Source of the DNA: Robertkochia solimangrovi
GTDB lineage: Bacteria; Bacteroidota; Bacteroidia; Flavobacteriales; Flavobacteriaceae
Direction of reading: 5' to 3'
Assembly: GCF_007279655.1 (NCBI RefSeq)
Contig: NZ_QKWN01000014.1
Location: 1 to 64,000 of the forward strand
DNA: 64,000 nucleotides
Shown: positions 37,729-43,187 of the stretch, piece by piece
How the letters are laid out: every line of letters begins with the position of its first letter
How positions within the stretch are numbered: position 1 is the first letter of the stretch
Notes under the pieces: generated by a model
Databases searched by the model: none
Told to the model about the DNA's origin: nothing
Seen by the model: only the letters and a program-made list of their open reading frames with translations
Translations under genes and position numbers: made by a program

Positions 37729-39129
37729 TTACGGCAGAATAGCCATCGACTGAAATAGTTTTGCGTTTGACATTGCTATCTTATAATTCAGTTCGATCGC
37801 CTTTAGCCTTGCGTCCAAATAACTTTTCTCTCTTGAATTTACCAGGAAAACAGAGCTTTCTCCAAAATTGAACTTTCTGATCTCGGCGTTCAGCATGGTA
37901 TTGTAATCAGATACCATTTCCTCCATGATCAATAGTTGTTCTTTGTAATTGATCACTTCCAGGTAATTGGCTTTGATCTTGTTCTCCAGCTCCAGTGAAG
38001 TTTGATCATATTCATAACCTGCATCCTGGATTTTTAATTTTGCGAGTTTTAGTCCGCCCCGTTCCTTGCGGAGGAATAGTGGGAATTCAAAGCTGAGTCC
38101 GAACTTATAATCTCCTGTATTGATCGTATTGAGGTAACGGGCATCCGAGGTCAGGAAGTTGTACGTTAGGTCGATTCTGGGTTTTAGTTTTTCGGCTTTG
38201 AGCTGACGGTCCACATCCATGATCTCTATTTTATCCCGCATCATACGTAATTTGGGATGGGTGTCCAGATCGAAATTTTCGGGGATGATGTCATTGATCT
38301 TAAGCGTTTCAGCAAGATTATCCAGTAGCAATGTGTCGGGCCTTATCTGTTCTTTTAACTCTAGTGGGATGCCTTCCTCCAACCAGAGAAAATTTGAAGC
38401 TTTTAAACGAGCTTTAGCCAGGCTCAATGCTGCCTGTTCAAGATTGAGTGTTTGGCTTTTGTATTGAATCCGGGCTTCAACACTGTCGATCGCTGCAATG
38501 TCACCACTTTCTGCACTGGTCTTTATGCTTTTGAATCGCTCTCCTGCATTATTCACGAATTCGGTTAATACACTTACTTCAAGTTGTGCTTTGTACCAGT
38601 CAATGTACACGGTTATCGCATCAAAAAGTATCTGGTTGATCTGTAATTCCCGTTCAGCAGCTGTTAAGCCAGTGAATATTTTGGCTTTTTTCAGGGTTGC
38701 CATCCGTTCATTTATAAACAGTCCCTGTCCCAACTGCATGCTGATACCTGCACTGTAGAGCCCGTCCTCAGGTACCGTGTTCTCCGGATTCAGGTAATAA
38801 CCTTCATTTTTCTCATACCCTGCCTTTAATTCGATTCCATACCAGGTCGGTATCTTAAAATTGGAGTTTAATATGGAGTAATATTCAGAGTCTTTGAAAT
38901 TTTTTGTATCGTAATCTACCTGTATCTTAGGGTCGAATCCTCCTCTTGCCTGCATCAGATTCGCCTGAGCTGAATTGAGTTTTAGATTCGCCTGACGGGC
39001 AACGGGGTGCCAGGTTTTTACGAAACCGAGATATTCGTTCAAGGTCATCATGTTGTCTGGTCCTTCCTCCTGGCAATAGGCTGATAAGGTCATCAACAAG
39101 GTGACTATAAGTATCACTGCTTTTTTCAT
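37729..39129 (-). CDS. TolC-family outer-membrane efflux protein
   Basis: A 466-residue outer-membrane channel protein that gives tripartite exporters an exit duct. It has a signal peptide (MKKAVILIVTLLMTLSAYCQ) and two TolC-like repeats of long helices with beta segments (for example LKLNSAQANLMQARGGFDPKIQVDYD and SFEFPLFLRKERGGLKLAKLKI, given here only in part). The ATG at 39129 is chosen over a GTG two codons earlier. Last gene of the TetR-ABC-HlyD-TolC unit, 72 bases after the adaptor gene. Confidence 0.9.
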   Translation of the reverse strand: MKKAVILIVTLLMTLSAYCQEEGPDNMMTLNEYLGFVKTWHPVARQANLKLNSAQANLMQARGGFDPKIQVDYDTKNFKDSEYYSILNSNFKIPTWYGIELKAGYEKNEGYYLNPENTVPEDGLYSAGISMQLGQGLFINERMATLKKAKIFTGLTAAERELQINQILFDAITVYIDWYKAQLEVSVLTEFVNNAGERFKSIKTSAESGDIAAIDSVEARIQYKSQTLNLEQAALSLAKARLKASNFLWLEEGIPLELKEQIRPDTLLLDNLAETLKINDIIPENFDLDTHPKLRMMRDKIEIMDVDRQLKAEKLKPRIDLTYNFLTSDARYLNTINTGDYKFGLSFEFPLFLRKERGGLKLAKLKIQDAGYEYDQTSLELENKIKANYLEVINYKEQLLIMEEMVSDYNTMLNAEIRKFNFGESSVFLVNSREKSYLDARLKAIELNYKIAMSNAKLFQSMAILP

Positions 39130-39201
39130 ATACACTTTTTTTGGATGTACACCGATGCATTTGGTGTTCTGTACATTACTGAATGCCCGGGTTCATCTAC
39201 T

Positions 39202-40554
39202 TTATTTTTTCTTTTCAGCAGCCTGGGCTGTTTGTGGGGTATAGTAATTTGGGGGGAAGCCATTCAGCTGTCTCCATATCTCATACCAGATCGGTACATC
39301 TTCCAATAGAGCAATAGTTCTGGCGCCTGAACCTGCACTCAGTGCTTCCGGCCAGGGTTCTTCATCCGGGTCCTGAGCGATCAGTATTCGGTATTTTCCA
39401 TTTTGACTGATGAACTTTTCAACTGCGATAATCTCGCCGCTAAAGGTTCCGTAGGAAGCATTCGGCCATCCGCTGAAAACTATAGATGGCCATCCGTCGA
39501 ATACGATCCTGATCTTCTCGCCCACATGTATCAGCGGCAAGTTCAACGGGTCGATATAACTATCGACTGCAAGTTGCGCATGTGCCGGCATGATACTTAC
39601 CAGAGGATCCCCTTCTTTAAAGGTTTCCCCGATACCTTGTTGCAAGGTCTTATTGATATACCCGTTTTGCGGTGCTGTAACGTAGTTCAGGTCCCGGCGG
39701 ATCGCATAATTGGTACGCTGATTTTGCATCTTTGAAAGATTGGCTTCCGCATCTGCACGGGTGCTGAGAGCTGAGAATTTGTCACTTTCAGCTTTCGAAA
39801 TTTTATCGGTATAGGAGGCATTGGTCCTGCTTATCTCCACCTCGGTATTGATCACTTCATTCCGGCTTGCTAAAAGCTTATTCTCCTGAGAGATCAATTT
39901 GGCCTTCGCTTCCTGAAGTTTCAGCCTTTTTTCTTCAACATCCGTCATCGATTTCAGGCCTTCTTTTTGCAGGGTATTGATCCTCTCGAATTGTCGTTCT
40001 GCGATAAGAATGTTTGTGTGTGCGGCTTCGAGCTCAATACTGTCGCTCTCCACTTTCAGGTGAGCCTGAAGTAGCTTATTCCTTGCCTGTTTAAGTTTCA
40101 GGGTGCGCTCCTGTTGTAGGGCGGCTATCTGATTATCGAGAGATTGTATTTTAAGACTATAGGAATTAATACTCAGTGATTTTGCTTCTAATTGCTGGTC
40201 GGTTCTTTCCAGGAGGTTAGGGTCGAAGTATGCGTCTTTGATCTCGGTGATCTTCATGATCGTGTCACCCTTTTGAACAAAATCACCTTCTCTTACATGC
40301 CATTTGTCTACACGTCCCGGAATGATCGAATGAATGGTCTGGGGTCTTTCATCCGGATTCAGCGTGGTGACATAGCCTGAACCGGTCACATTCTGCGTCC
40401 AGGGGAGGAATAGTCCCAGAAAACATAATATGAAGAATATTCCGATAAGCTTTCGGAAGATCTTGTAATGAACCTTCCCGAACACTTTCTTAGAGGACTT
40501 ATACTGACTGATGTCCACTGTTTTGTTTAATTGGTTTGAGGATATATTAAGCAT
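39202..40554 (-). CDS. HlyD-family periplasmic adaptor of a tripartite exporter
   Basis: A 450-residue membrane fusion protein linking an inner-membrane ABC protein to TolC. One transmembrane helix (LIGIFFILCFLGLFLPW, about residues 37-53) is followed by a split biotinyl-lipoyl domain (VTGSGYVTTLNPDERPQTIH and YVTAPQNGYINKTLQQG), a coiled-coil hairpin of about 170 residues, and a beta-barrel domain. Residues 435-450 are Ala/Lys rich. The gap to the ABC gene is 11 bases, so expression is coupled. Confidence 0.9.
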   Translation of the reverse strand: MLNISSNQLNKTVDISQYKSSKKVFGKVHYKIFRKLIGIFFILCFLGLFLPWTQNVTGSGYVTTLNPDERPQTIHSIIPGRVDKWHVREGDFVQKGDTIMKITEIKDAYFDPNLLERTDQQLEAKSLSINSYSLKIQSLDNQIAALQQERTLKLKQARNKLLQAHLKVESDSIELEAAHTNILIAERQFERINTLQKEGLKSMTDVEEKRLKLQEAKAKLISQENKLLASRNEVINTEVEISRTNASYTDKISKAESDKFSALSTRADAEANLSKMQNQRTNYAIRRDLNYVTAPQNGYINKTLQQGIGETFKEGDPLVSIMPAHAQLAVDSYIDPLNLPLIHVGEKIRIVFDGWPSIVFSGWPNASYGTFSGEIIAVEKFISQNGKYRILIAQDPDEEPWPEALSAGSGARTIALLEDVPIWYEIWRQLNGFPPNYYTPQTAQAAEKKK

Positions 40555-40565
40555 ATACGTTTTCT

Positions 40566-42233
40566 TTAGAATCTGAATAATTTTCCGTTTTCCAGGTTAT
40601 ATTGGATCGTACATTTAGTACTCCAATAGTTGTCTTCTGTCACGACCACTAAGGACCAATTATGTTCCGGGGCGGTAAGGAAGTCGATGATTCTTCTTGC
40701 TTCCTTCTCCTGGAAGGAATCCAGCGCTTTATCGAGTATCAACAACTTAGGCCGCTTTACGATACTACGTGCGATTACGATCTTTTTAGCGATCGTGGAC
40801 GGGATTTGTCTTCCTTCAGGGTAGATCACCGTATTCCAGCCTTTTGGTTGTTTCTTGATGAATTCAGTAAGCCCGGTATTTTCAATGGCCCACTTGAGGT
40901 CTTCTTCAGTTATGTTTTTGGATCCAAAGGTGATGTTGTCTTTGATAGTTCCTTCGAATGGAGTTTCCTCTGCGATGATCTGTCCTATATTTCCCCGGTA
41001 GGAATTAGGACTTATACCATCTATAGACATATTGTTGATATAGATATTTCCAGATTCAGGTTCCTGTAGTCCGGCGATCAAATGAAGGAGTGTCGACCTA
41101 CCGGAACCTTGAGCCCCCTTGATGATGATCTTTGAACCTTGTGGAATCTCCAGGGAGAGTTCATTTAATAGCGGCTTTTCCTTTTTGTTGTAACGAAAGA
41201 TGATATCTTCCAGTTGTAATCTGAGTTCGCCATTGATCTTGAATTCCGTAGATTGCGGTTGTGGCTCCAGTTCTTTATCTACTACCTGTCCGATCTTTTC
41301 CAGAGAGGTTAGCATATCATACCCGATCTCTAGCCCCAGGATCAGCTTCTCAACGGAATTGATCACCAGAAGGATTATGATCTCAGCTGCCACAAACTGT
41401 CCGATGTTCATCTGTTGATTGAGCACCAGCATACCGCCGATAACCAGAAGTCCGGCGGTTACCAGTACTTTAAAACCGATCAATTGTCCGAACTGTAACA
41501 TGAGAATCTTGAAGTGTGATTCACGCGCATCGATATACCGGTCGACCAGAGTATCCGATTTATCCATGGCATGACTGGTTTTCCCGGAAAGTTTAAAACT
41601 GATAATGGATCTGGCGACCTCTTGAATCCAGTGAATCACACGATATTTGTGCTTTGATTCATCAAGACTGGTTTCGAGTCCCTGTCGCATTGTAAACTTG
41701 AAAACTATGTAGATGAATACGATGAGGAGTAACCCATAAATGATGAAGAACGAATGGTAAAATGACAGCAGTATGAGTCCGAAAAGGATCTGTAATAAAG
41801 CTGCGGGTATATCGATAAGGATCTTCGAAATGCTTTTCTGTACCGTTATGGTGTCGAAAAACCGGTTTGCAAGTTCCGGGGGATAATAGTTCTGAAGTTC
41901 ACTGATTTTGATCTTTGGGAATCGGTATGAAAATTCGAAAGCCGATCTCGTGAAGATCTTTTGTTGAATATCTTCAATGATCCTGAGTTGCATAAGCTGT
42001 AAAACTCCGGCAAAGGCTACTCCAAGGGTTACCACGACCACAAGAACAACCCATGAGGTGCTTACCTGTGCACTCTGAAGCAGGTTGATGATCGCTTGGA
42101 TTCCAAGGGGAAGCGACAGGTTGACTAAACCTGCAAATATCGCATAATAACATATTTGATAAATATCCTTTTTATCAAGTTTTAGCAGATTGACAAATCT
42201 TTTCCAGGGGGTTGGAGTTTCGTTCTTATTCAT
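40566..42233 (-). CDS. ABC-exporter-like protein with a degenerate ATPase domain
   Basis: A 555-residue type I exporter half-transporter: six-helix transmembrane domain (about 20-310) and nucleotide-binding domain (about 335-555), without an N-terminal peptidase domain. The NBD fold is kept, but the ATPase motifs are changed. The Walker A lysine is Arg379 (GAQGSGRST), the Q-loop region reads IAEETPFEGTI with Glu near 422, the LSGGQ signature is IPSTI (477-481), the Walker B catalytic glutamate is Lys502 (LLILDKAL), and the H-switch histidine is Glu533 (VVVTEDNYW). I checked the codons for the Walker and H-switch changes. There is no frameshift. Its start overlaps the tetR end by 8 bases. Confidence 0.9.
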   Translation of the reverse strand: MNKNETPTPWKRFVNLLKLDKKDIYQICYYAIFAGLVNLSLPLGIQAIINLLQSAQVSTSWVVLVVVVTLGVAFAGVLQLMQLRIIEDIQQKIFTRSAFEFSYRFPKIKISELQNYYPPELANRFFDTITVQKSISKILIDIPAALLQILFGLILLSFYHSFFIIYGLLLIVFIYIVFKFTMRQGLETSLDESKHKYRVIHWIQEVARSIISFKLSGKTSHAMDKSDTLVDRYIDARESHFKILMLQFGQLIGFKVLVTAGLLVIGGMLVLNQQMNIGQFVAAEIIILLVINSVEKLILGLEIGYDMLTSLEKIGQVVDKELEPQPQSTEFKINGELRLQLEDIIFRYNKKEKPLLNELSLEIPQGSKIIIKGAQGSGRSTLLHLIAGLQEPESGNIYINNMSIDGISPNSYRGNIGQIIAEETPFEGTIKDNITFGSKNITEEDLKWAIENTGLTEFIKKQPKGWNTVIYPEGRQIPSTIAKKIVIARSIVKRPKLLILDKALDSFQEKEARRIIDFLTAPEHNWSLVVVTEDNYWSTKCTIQYNLENGKLFRF

Positions 42234-42909
42234 TATTGATATTGAGGTTGTTGAATACCATATGTGTTAATACTTCCGTAACGGATACGTTTTCATTACA
42301 ATCGGTTATAGTGGGGAAATGTTTTTTTAAGAATTGTTGATTCATGGTTTCCTCCAATATGATGGTGACCAGCGTCTTTGCATATTTATATTCAGGATCT
42401 GCATCCTGTACGATATCGGTAAGCCGCTTGGCGAGCTGTTTATAGAACATAAAATGTCCCTCCGTATTCTCCTGATCTACATCCTTGGTAAGGAAAATTT
42501 TTCTGGAATCGAATACGACGATATTGTGTAAGAGTATCTCATTGATATGGTCAAATCGATTATCGATATTCACTTCATCTGCCACTACTTCTATCGCTTT
42601 CTTGAGTTTGAGAGCTGGTTCGGGAATACCATAGGTTTCGATCACCAATTTGTATTCGATCCATCCCCAATACCAGTTCGTGAGGTAGAGGAGTAGCTTG
42701 TGTTTGTTTTCAAAGTAGCGATAGACGGAGCTTTCAGGAGAATTAATCCTTGCACCTAGTTTTTTGAAAGTGAACTGTTCAAACCCAAGCTCATCCAGAA
42801 GTTCGATACTGTTCTTGAGTATTTTTCGGCCCAGATCCGAAGATTCAGGATCCTTGATGTAGATCTTGTCGCTTATTCTGATTTTCAGGTTTGTTAGTAG
42901 TGCTTCCAT
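42226..42909 (-). CDS. TetR/AcrR-family regulator of the exporter operon
   Basis: A 227-residue one-component regulator. The helix-turn-helix near residues 27-75 is recognisable (ILKNSIELLDELGFEQFTFKKLG and NSPESSVYRYFENKHKLLLYL, partly quoted). It has an N-terminal extension of about 25 residues. The C-terminal ligand domain is not assignable. The gene is first in the operon and overlaps the ABC gene by 8 bases, so it very likely controls its own operon. A 13-bp palindrome lies 28 bases upstream of the ATG. Confidence 0.88.
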   Translation of the reverse strand: MEALLTNLKIRISDKIYIKDPESSDLGRKILKNSIELLDELGFEQFTFKKLGARINSPESSVYRYFENKHKLLLYLTNWYWGWIEYKLVIETYGIPEPALKLKKAIEVVADEVNIDNRFDHINEILLHNIVVFDSRKIFLTKDVDQENTEGHFMFYKQLAKRLTDIVQDADPEYKYAKTLVTIILEETMNQQFLKKHFPTITDCNENVSVTEVLTHMVFNNLNINNE

Positions 42910-42936
42910 GTTTTAAAACTTGAACTCGCTAAATTA

Positions 42937-42949
42937 ATAGTATTACTAT
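42937..42949. promoter_or_regulatory. candidate TetR-family operator
   Basis: ATAGTATTACTAT is a perfect 13-base palindrome (6-base arms, central T). On the minus strand it directly precedes TAATTTAG, a 7 of 8 match to the -7 element. A regulator bound here would block the tetR-exporter promoter, which suits autorepression. That is inference from position. Confidence 0.45.
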
Positions 42950-43187
42950 CATTTTTTGCTGGTCTTAGTGAAAAATTAACATATAACGTTTGCGTGGAAT
43001 TCGGGTTGGTAAGTGTGCGTTGGTCTGCTTGCATGCAGGAGCGAAATGATCCTGTCTTTAGTAACTGGCGGTGTTTAAGGTTGTCGCTATCATGGTGCTT
43101 TTCCAGAATGAAGCTTGAGAGTGCTGTAGTGAAAGTGATCTTCAAAGACTCAATTTTTTGTAGTAGATAATGGGGTTTATGGAAAAA

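Follow-up and report, generated by a model that had tools for sequence, protein, structure and literature searches.

What can an exporter operon do when its ATP-binding cassette (ABC) protein has lost residues needed for ATP hydrolysis? The question is raised by a stretch of 64,000 nucleotides from Robertkochia solimangrovi (contig NZ_QKWN01000014.1, positions 1 to 64,000; the whole stretch is called the window here), in which genes for a TetR-family regulator, an ABC-exporter-like protein, a HlyD-family adaptor and a TolC-family channel follow one another. The original prediction described this operon as tight and intact, and so it is: the four minus-strand frames are all intact, the ABC frame has no stop, the TetR and ABC genes overlap by 8 bases and the gap between the ABC and HlyD genes is 11 bases. 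In our estimate there is an even chance that the operon encodes a TetR-controlled tripartite exporter which derives from an ATP-driven ancestor resembling type I secretion and no longer uses ATP hydrolysis.

42226-42909, minus strand: TetR-family regulator, first gene of the operon (227 amino acids; Pfam TetR_N)
40566-42233, minus strand: ABC-exporter-like protein with altered ATPase motifs (555 amino acids; Pfam ABC_membrane and ABC_tran)
39202-40554, minus strand: HlyD-family periplasmic adaptor (450 amino acids; Pfam HlyD)
37729-39135, minus strand: TolC-family outer-membrane channel (468 amino acids from GTG; Pfam OEP)

ATPase residues in the window and across the family

The ABC protein consists of a conserved membrane domain and a degenerate nucleotide-binding domain (NBD). 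A catalytic NBD combines the Walker A Lys, the Q-loop, the LSGGQ signature, the Walker B Asp-Glu (D-E) pair and the H-switch, and the window protein does not have this set. Its motif residues, read from the codons and from an alignment to canonical ABC proteins, are listed below the two domains.

41274-42209, minus strand: membrane domain with six long helices, approximately residues 9-320, the conserved one of the two domains (AlphaFold2 model)
40569-41219, minus strand: degenerate NBD, about residues 339-555 (Pfam, alignment, AlphaFold2 model)
41097-41099, minus strand: R379 replacing the Walker A Lys
40971-40973, minus strand: A421 at the Q-loop Gln position, with E422 next to it
40791-40805, minus strand: IPSTI (477-481) replacing the LSGGQ signature
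40728-40733, minus strand: D501-K502, the Walker B Asp retained and the catalytic Glu changed to Lys
40635-40637, minus strand: E533 replacing the H-switch His

The substitutions R379, IPSTI, K502 and E533 had been proposed from the letters alone and are confirmed by codons and alignment. The supposed change of the Q-loop Gln to Glu is not, as the alignment places A421 at this position and the Glu that had been seen is its neighbor E422. The claim that every ATPase motif is altered therefore stands for five sites but not for Walker B D501, which is present. In the same alignment, the motifs of four other ABC proteins of this genome are normal or nearly so (L003, L007, L009 with D-D at Walker B, and L019 with LSSGQ).

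Relatives were collected with a profile built from 23 orthologues at a match threshold of E 1e-60. Matches were found in 177 of 299 genomes from the family of the window, which its named orthologues indicate to be the Flavobacteriaceae, and among drawn genomes in 144/395 of the order, 193/395 of the class and 76/296 of the phylum (these sets overlap). Eighty wider regions and 20 later ones were hand-picked from the match lists so as to cover different families and unusual lengths, and are thus not a random sample; 15 of the 27 other-class genomes with a match were fetched, and a further 27 genomes were chosen among weak matches. The 229 homologues compared comprise 196 main-clade proteins with an NBD region, four of which (L307-L310) belong to other classes of the phylum, together with 11 basal, 4 sphingomonad and 18 NBD-less proteins. 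Left out were contig-end fragments (L196, L276, L279, L280, L284, L286, L294, L302), duplicates of the window (L031, L103), identical proteins, and L098-L101, which are distant and not orthologues. Twenty-seven ABC proteins of the same phylum served as canonical controls.

The full set of six motifs was found in none of the 229 homologues, compared with 22 of the 27 controls, and LS[GS]GQ in none of the 196 main-clade proteins, compared with 23 controls. Strict Walker A is retained in 166 main-clade proteins, the Q-loop Gln in 13, the D-E pair in 2 and the H-switch His in 5, and no protein has all motifs. Among the first 67 sequences, none has LSGGQ or the D-E pair, and His occurs at 533 in two. 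The basal group (11 fetched, from other classes of the phylum) is nearer to the canonical state, with Walker A and the Walker B D-E pair in 11/11 and the H-switch in 9/11; it has the Q-loop Gln and strict LS[GS]GQ in 0/11 and a loose signature in 2/11. At a threshold of E 1e-30 the Novosphingobium relative has matches in fifteen plasmid records of sphingomonads, its own among them. The four proteins that were read come from Novosphingobium aromaticivorans, Sphingobium baderi, Croceicoccus marinus and Sphingomonas hankookensis. They lack Walker A, the Q-loop Gln, the signature, the Walker B Asp and the H-switch, one of them has Glu at 502, and HlyD and TolC genes come after the ABC gene in 4/4. 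One protein flagged as canonical by a pattern scan (L186) was rejected, since its motif does not line up with the signature in the alignment.

Conservation of the altered residues is mixed: in the main clade LS[GS]GQ is lost throughout and the D-E pair in nearly all proteins, but R379 is not shared by close relatives, and the Walker A Lys is mostly kept. Of 67 close sequences the window alone has Arg at 379 and the other 66 have Lys; R379 by itself could be species-specific. The same Lys-to-Arg change is seen in the distant members L156, L201, L207, L208, L228 and L282. Sequencing error as the cause of the motif loss is rejected, as the pattern is family-wide.

The residues that remain raise the idea of a slow ATPase with an unorthodox active site, for example with E-D in place of D-E. 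Glu is found at 501 in 35 of the 67 close sequences and at 502 there is Asp in 48 and Glu in 16, Walker A is mostly kept, and the basal group with its D-E pairs may still hydrolyze ATP. Against this, almost every main-clade protein has lost the signature, Q-loop and His switch as well, the window has Lys at 502, and forms without any NBD exist, which leaves a slow ATPase a very improbable explanation.

The altered NBD is nevertheless under purifying selection. In a Nei-Gojobori analysis of 81 close pairs (dS 0.05-1.5), the ratio of nonsynonymous to synonymous rates (dN/dS) had a median of 0.050 in the NBD (maximum 0.093) and was 0.032 in the membrane domain; the pairs are non-independent, with shared sequences and a few species present twice, and the 45 pairs printed do not include the window. 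Such selection indicates that the structure of the altered NBD is maintained, and for the relatives it upholds the earlier view that the ABC frame is under selection. The relation between the two domains is inverted relative to working exporters. Over 400 random pairs of degenerate members, mean identity is 50% in the membrane domain and 30% in the NBD (membrane domain higher in 397), compared with 26% and 41% for 66 pairs of 12 canonical ABC proteins (membrane domain higher in 2). The near-canonical group is intermediate, with 52% and 44% (membrane domain higher in 27/36 pairs).

The partner genes are kept as well. Of 71 close loci checked, 67 are orthologues, and TetR, ABC and HlyD genes are present in 67/67 and TolC in all 37 that are long enough to show it. 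Among the wider loci, HlyD is found in 79/80 and TolC in 78/80, the misses being L196 (both) and L226 (TolC), each at a contig end. TetR is present in 84 of 117 loci, 37 of which are shared with the set of 67. Gene order is thus kept in homologous loci, one of the checks that had been proposed. Every other protein cluster among the 30 listed is limited to at most 6 of the 80 wider loci (opposite-strand frames overlapping the operon excluded), and some neighboring genes recur within named Flavobacteriaceae loci. The alternative of a single decaying gene, which the original prediction had disfavored, is rejected by the family-wide spread, the absence of canonical homologues in the collections searched, the kept gene order and the NBD dN/dS of 0.05.

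Kept Walker A motifs and purifying selection also bear on a further alternative, in which the NBD binds ATP without hydrolyzing it and thereby opens, closes or assembles the channel, so that the protein is an ATP-gated conduit or scaffold and transport runs downhill or is otherwise powered. Strict Walker A in 166/196 main-clade proteins and the low NBD dN/dS fit this idea. However, Walker A is lost or altered in the other 30, the window included, and in 4/4 sphingomonads, and 18 fetched members have no NBD to gate with. We regard such a conduit as unlikely, though a serious contender.

Relatives without a nucleotide-binding domain

Nine fetched genomes, from three families, encode a free-standing membrane domain of 334-361 amino acids with hlyD directly after it (L277, L278 and L303; L304; L290, L291, L293, L305 and L306). 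No NBD profile match above 25 bits was found in these loci; a single 17-bit match at the edge of L304 is on the opposite strand and some 4 kb away from the gene. In nine others (L204-L206, L296, L297, L298, L299, L300, L301) the membrane domain is fused to HlyD, and a Pfam scan of five of the fusions (L204-L206, L297, L299) gave HlyD domains and no ABC_tran. Nine genomes of genus g283 have a partial match fitting the fusion pattern, and three of these were fetched. The partners persist here too, as a TetR gene adjoins 8 of the 18 NBD-less genes and TolC follows in the seven NBD-less loci that are long enough (L204-L206, L303-L306). L196 was rejected as a membrane domain alone, since it is cut by the contig end. 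In L281 and L283 the NBD profile has no match above 25 bits.

In a quick IQ-TREE search of 148 rows, based on membrane-domain columns only, the NBD-less rows are nested among degenerate rows and require three changes, and the rows with the membrane domain alone form one clade. One common loss is rejected, as a single NBD-less clade was excluded (63 rows, p-AU 0.0104), and a single clade of both fusion groups was not rejected (63 rows, p 0.486). These results point to two or three losses of the NBD. The basal order is provisional because of long branches, a long root branch and the quick search; the program itself warned that several long branches meet.

Both coupling-helix loops (ICL1 and ICL2) are shorter in 8 of the 9 fusions, with 26-30 and 30-39 residues, respectively, compared with 31 and 42 in 12 canonical controls. 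Shortening in one or both loops is also seen in the NBD-bearing L200, L227 and L295.

These relatives argue against a heterodimer, and against an ATPase, as the general mechanism. In a heterodimer the window protein would pair with a canonical half-exporter encoded elsewhere and share one active ATP site. Known heterodimeric exporters keep the working residues at one site, and neither membrane domains alone nor fused forms can contribute half a site; the shortened coupling loops of the fusions likewise speak against such pairing. A conserved canonical ABC neighbor was not found by pattern scan in 117 loci, family f18 excepted, with the rest of the genomes not searched; the two genuine canonical ABC frames in these loci are both on the opposite strand, with midpoints more than 2 kb away. 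In TM287/288 and TmrAB a degenerate half resembles the family here and has an active partner, whereas none is conserved beside this operon. On the other side, degenerate ABC halves do occur in known heterodimers (TmrAB, PMC8277102; this and the other PMC articles below are cited from excerpts), and family f18 (L322, L276) has a same-strand canonical ABC gene directly upstream, with LSGGQ, ILILDE and a His switch read in L322:1362-5515 and L276:2-2502 and the same spacing in G744:C45:362-4268, so that a partner is possible in that lineage. For the family as a whole we consider a heterodimer improbable.

The original prediction had left the choice between a scaffold or regulator, a partner of a separate ABC protein and an export path with another energy source. 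The NBD-less relatives favor the last and weigh against the partner.

Charged residues in the predicted sixth transmembrane helix and the energy source

The predicted sixth transmembrane helix (TM6, 277-320) carries the following charged residues.

41382-41384, minus strand: E284 in predicted TM6 (codons, alignment, AlphaFold2 model)
41346-41351, minus strand: E295-K296 in predicted TM6 (codons, alignment)

E284 lies seven residues into the helix, and Glu occupies this position in 229/229 homologues, the NBD-less ones included, and in 0/27 canonical ABC proteins. Glu or Asp at 295 and Lys at 296 are found in 190 and 191 of the 196 main-clade proteins, in 18/18 and 18/18 of the NBD-less and in 10/11 and 9/11 of the basal proteins, whereas canonical ABC proteins have neither (0/27). 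The equivalence of E284 with the functional TM6 glutamate E314 of LmrA is not claimed; the spacing to Walker A speaks against it, with 95 residues here and 74 in LmrA by the numbering of PMC6155054, a difference of about 20.

Since the ATPase is lost, sometimes with the whole NBD, and the membrane part and its partners are strongly conserved, another energy source is probable. By analogy the exporter of this family is probably ion-driven like SbmA, but working together with HlyD and TolC. A substrate would pass from the membrane domain through HlyD and TolC, powered by an ion gradient, and the operon would be induced when TetR binds a ligand. The remaining NBD may act as a clasp, or as an ATP sensor in the members that bear the lysine.

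Precedents for an ion-coupled membrane domain come from LmrA and MsbA: MsbA without its NBD shows efflux dependent on a pH gradient (PMC4979069), and ion conductance was reported for LmrA without its NBD (PMC6155054). These are laboratory constructs, whereas NBD loss in the present family is natural.

Several observations weigh against an ion-driven exporter. Nucleotide binding may still matter, given that Walker A is retained in most NBDs and that purifying selection acts on them, and the NBD-less forms fit an ion-driven pump and a passive conduit alike. E284, and mostly also E295-K296, is already present in the basal group with its near-canonical NBD, so these residues did not arise to replace ATP, and the idea of E284 as a replacement is weakened, as the residue predates NBD loss. 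E295 and K296 are absent in the sphingomonads (0/4 each). The placement of E284 comes from a monomer model of moderate confidence, which does not fix the cavity-facing side. Fusion L297 and the nine proteins with the membrane domain alone keep or exceed normal coupling-loop lengths. Of the precedents, NBD-less MsbA was less efficient than the wild type (PMC4979069), and for LmrA, ATP hydrolysis was called compulsory for ethidium transport and the NBD-less form gave no current in an ATP-triggered assay (PMC6155054). A linked substrate gene was not found either, with no conserved extra neighbor in the neighborhoods of class-wide loci, although a substrate may be encoded elsewhere; nor did the open-licence literature searched yield measurements of transport, ATPase activity or ions for any member.

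The last two points also suit an alternative in which the protein transports nothing and its membrane domain anchors or senses, holding HlyD-TolC for another inner-membrane pump or envelope process. TetR, HlyD and TolC are however a typical efflux set, and the invariant TM6 charges and conserved helix spacing suggest a working pathway. We give a non-transporter little credence.

Relation to known exporters

The AlphaFold2 model of the ABC protein has an ABC exporter fold (pLDDT 74, pTM 0.46), and its six transmembrane helices, homologous to ABC_membrane, place it in the type IV ABC exporter fold. The top Foldseek matches are Sav1866, TM287/288 and PCAT1, and the matches include 2hyd, 6quz, 8vox and PrtD. 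Pfam PF00664 (ABC_membrane) scores 30.1 bits against a cut-off of 28, and the best NCBIfam matches, TIGR03796 with 190 bits (853) and TIGR03375 with 186 bits (693), are below cut-off. As in type I secretion, ABC, HlyD and TolC are encoded in one operon, and the family resembles the exporters of such systems (HlyB, LssB and NHLP/PCAT types) in the fold of both domains, the partners and the operon logic. It differs from them in the lost ATPase motifs, the loss of the NBD in some members, the TM6 glutamate, the lack of a conserved linked substrate and the frequent TetR regulator. EmrAB-TolC is an ion-driven tripartite efflux system with a HlyD-type adaptor, but its inner-membrane pump belongs to the major facilitator superfamily (MFS), whereas the pump here has an ABC fold.

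SbmA/BacA-like peptide transporters (SLiPTs) are not known to work with HlyD and TolC. They share the ABC-exporter membrane fold and membrane glutamates with the present family, and have no NBD, as is the case for its NBD-less members. They differ in that they import and have extra TM0 helices (PMC13316013), and in the HlyD, TolC and living intermediate stages seen here. SbmA-like transporters are proton-driven, and their proposed ancestors are full-length ABC transporters, with subsequent loss of the NBD; full-length YddA, which has an NBD, already bears a partial glutamate ladder, so that glutamates preceded NBD loss in an order similar to that of the present family (PMC13316013). The absence of the NBD that characterizes SLiPTs is found in the 18 NBD-less members and not in the window protein, and the SbmA/BacA Pfam family gave no match among 21 ABC-related proteins scanned, the window protein included. 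Among the papers listed in searches of the open-licence PMC literature, none was recognizable by title and start of abstract as describing such a system, and the excerpts of PMC4026382 and PMC10434189 contain nothing on one.

Some loci show further features. The TolC frame of the window opens at GTG, and an ATG two codons downstream (39129), followed by a signal-peptide-like start, is the likelier start. An imperfect inverted repeat at 42931-42955, just upstream of the TetR start, is a candidate operator but may be due to chance. In the 10.5-kb locus of the basal member L313:3983-5839 the profiles recognized neither a HlyD nor a TolC gene. L177-L187, L202, L203, L311, L312 and L314-L320 have some 130-260 additional amino acids at the N terminus; as a guess, this region could be a C39-like domain of the kind found in HlyB, and six scanned proteins (L177, L184, L202, L312, L317, L322) gave no confident Pfam match for it. 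Riemerella record L324 (NZ_CP081938.1) is labelled a plasmid but, with rplU, murB and a murF-alr gene in the surroundings of the operon, resembles a chromosomal piece.

The family forms a natural series in the dismantling of an ABC exporter's engine, with selection maintained on the remaining parts. Slightly short of an even chance, in our judgment, is the stronger reading that an exporter lineage has been caught at every stage of a switch from ATP to an ion gradient, from a near-canonical NBD through one that is dead but conserved and one that is unrecognizable to the membrane domain alone and the fusion of membrane domain and HlyD. The natural series makes testable the debated question of whether the membrane domain of an ABC exporter can work as a secondary transporter. 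Records of this family in Bacteroidota and sphingomonads that are annotated as "ABC transporter ATP-binding protein" are probably not ATPases. A Chem Rev abstract names ABC, RND and MFS proteins as the energized transporters of tripartite systems; if the exporter proposed here is real, it would be a fourth means of powering pumps of the TolC type, next to RND, MFS and classical ABC transporters.

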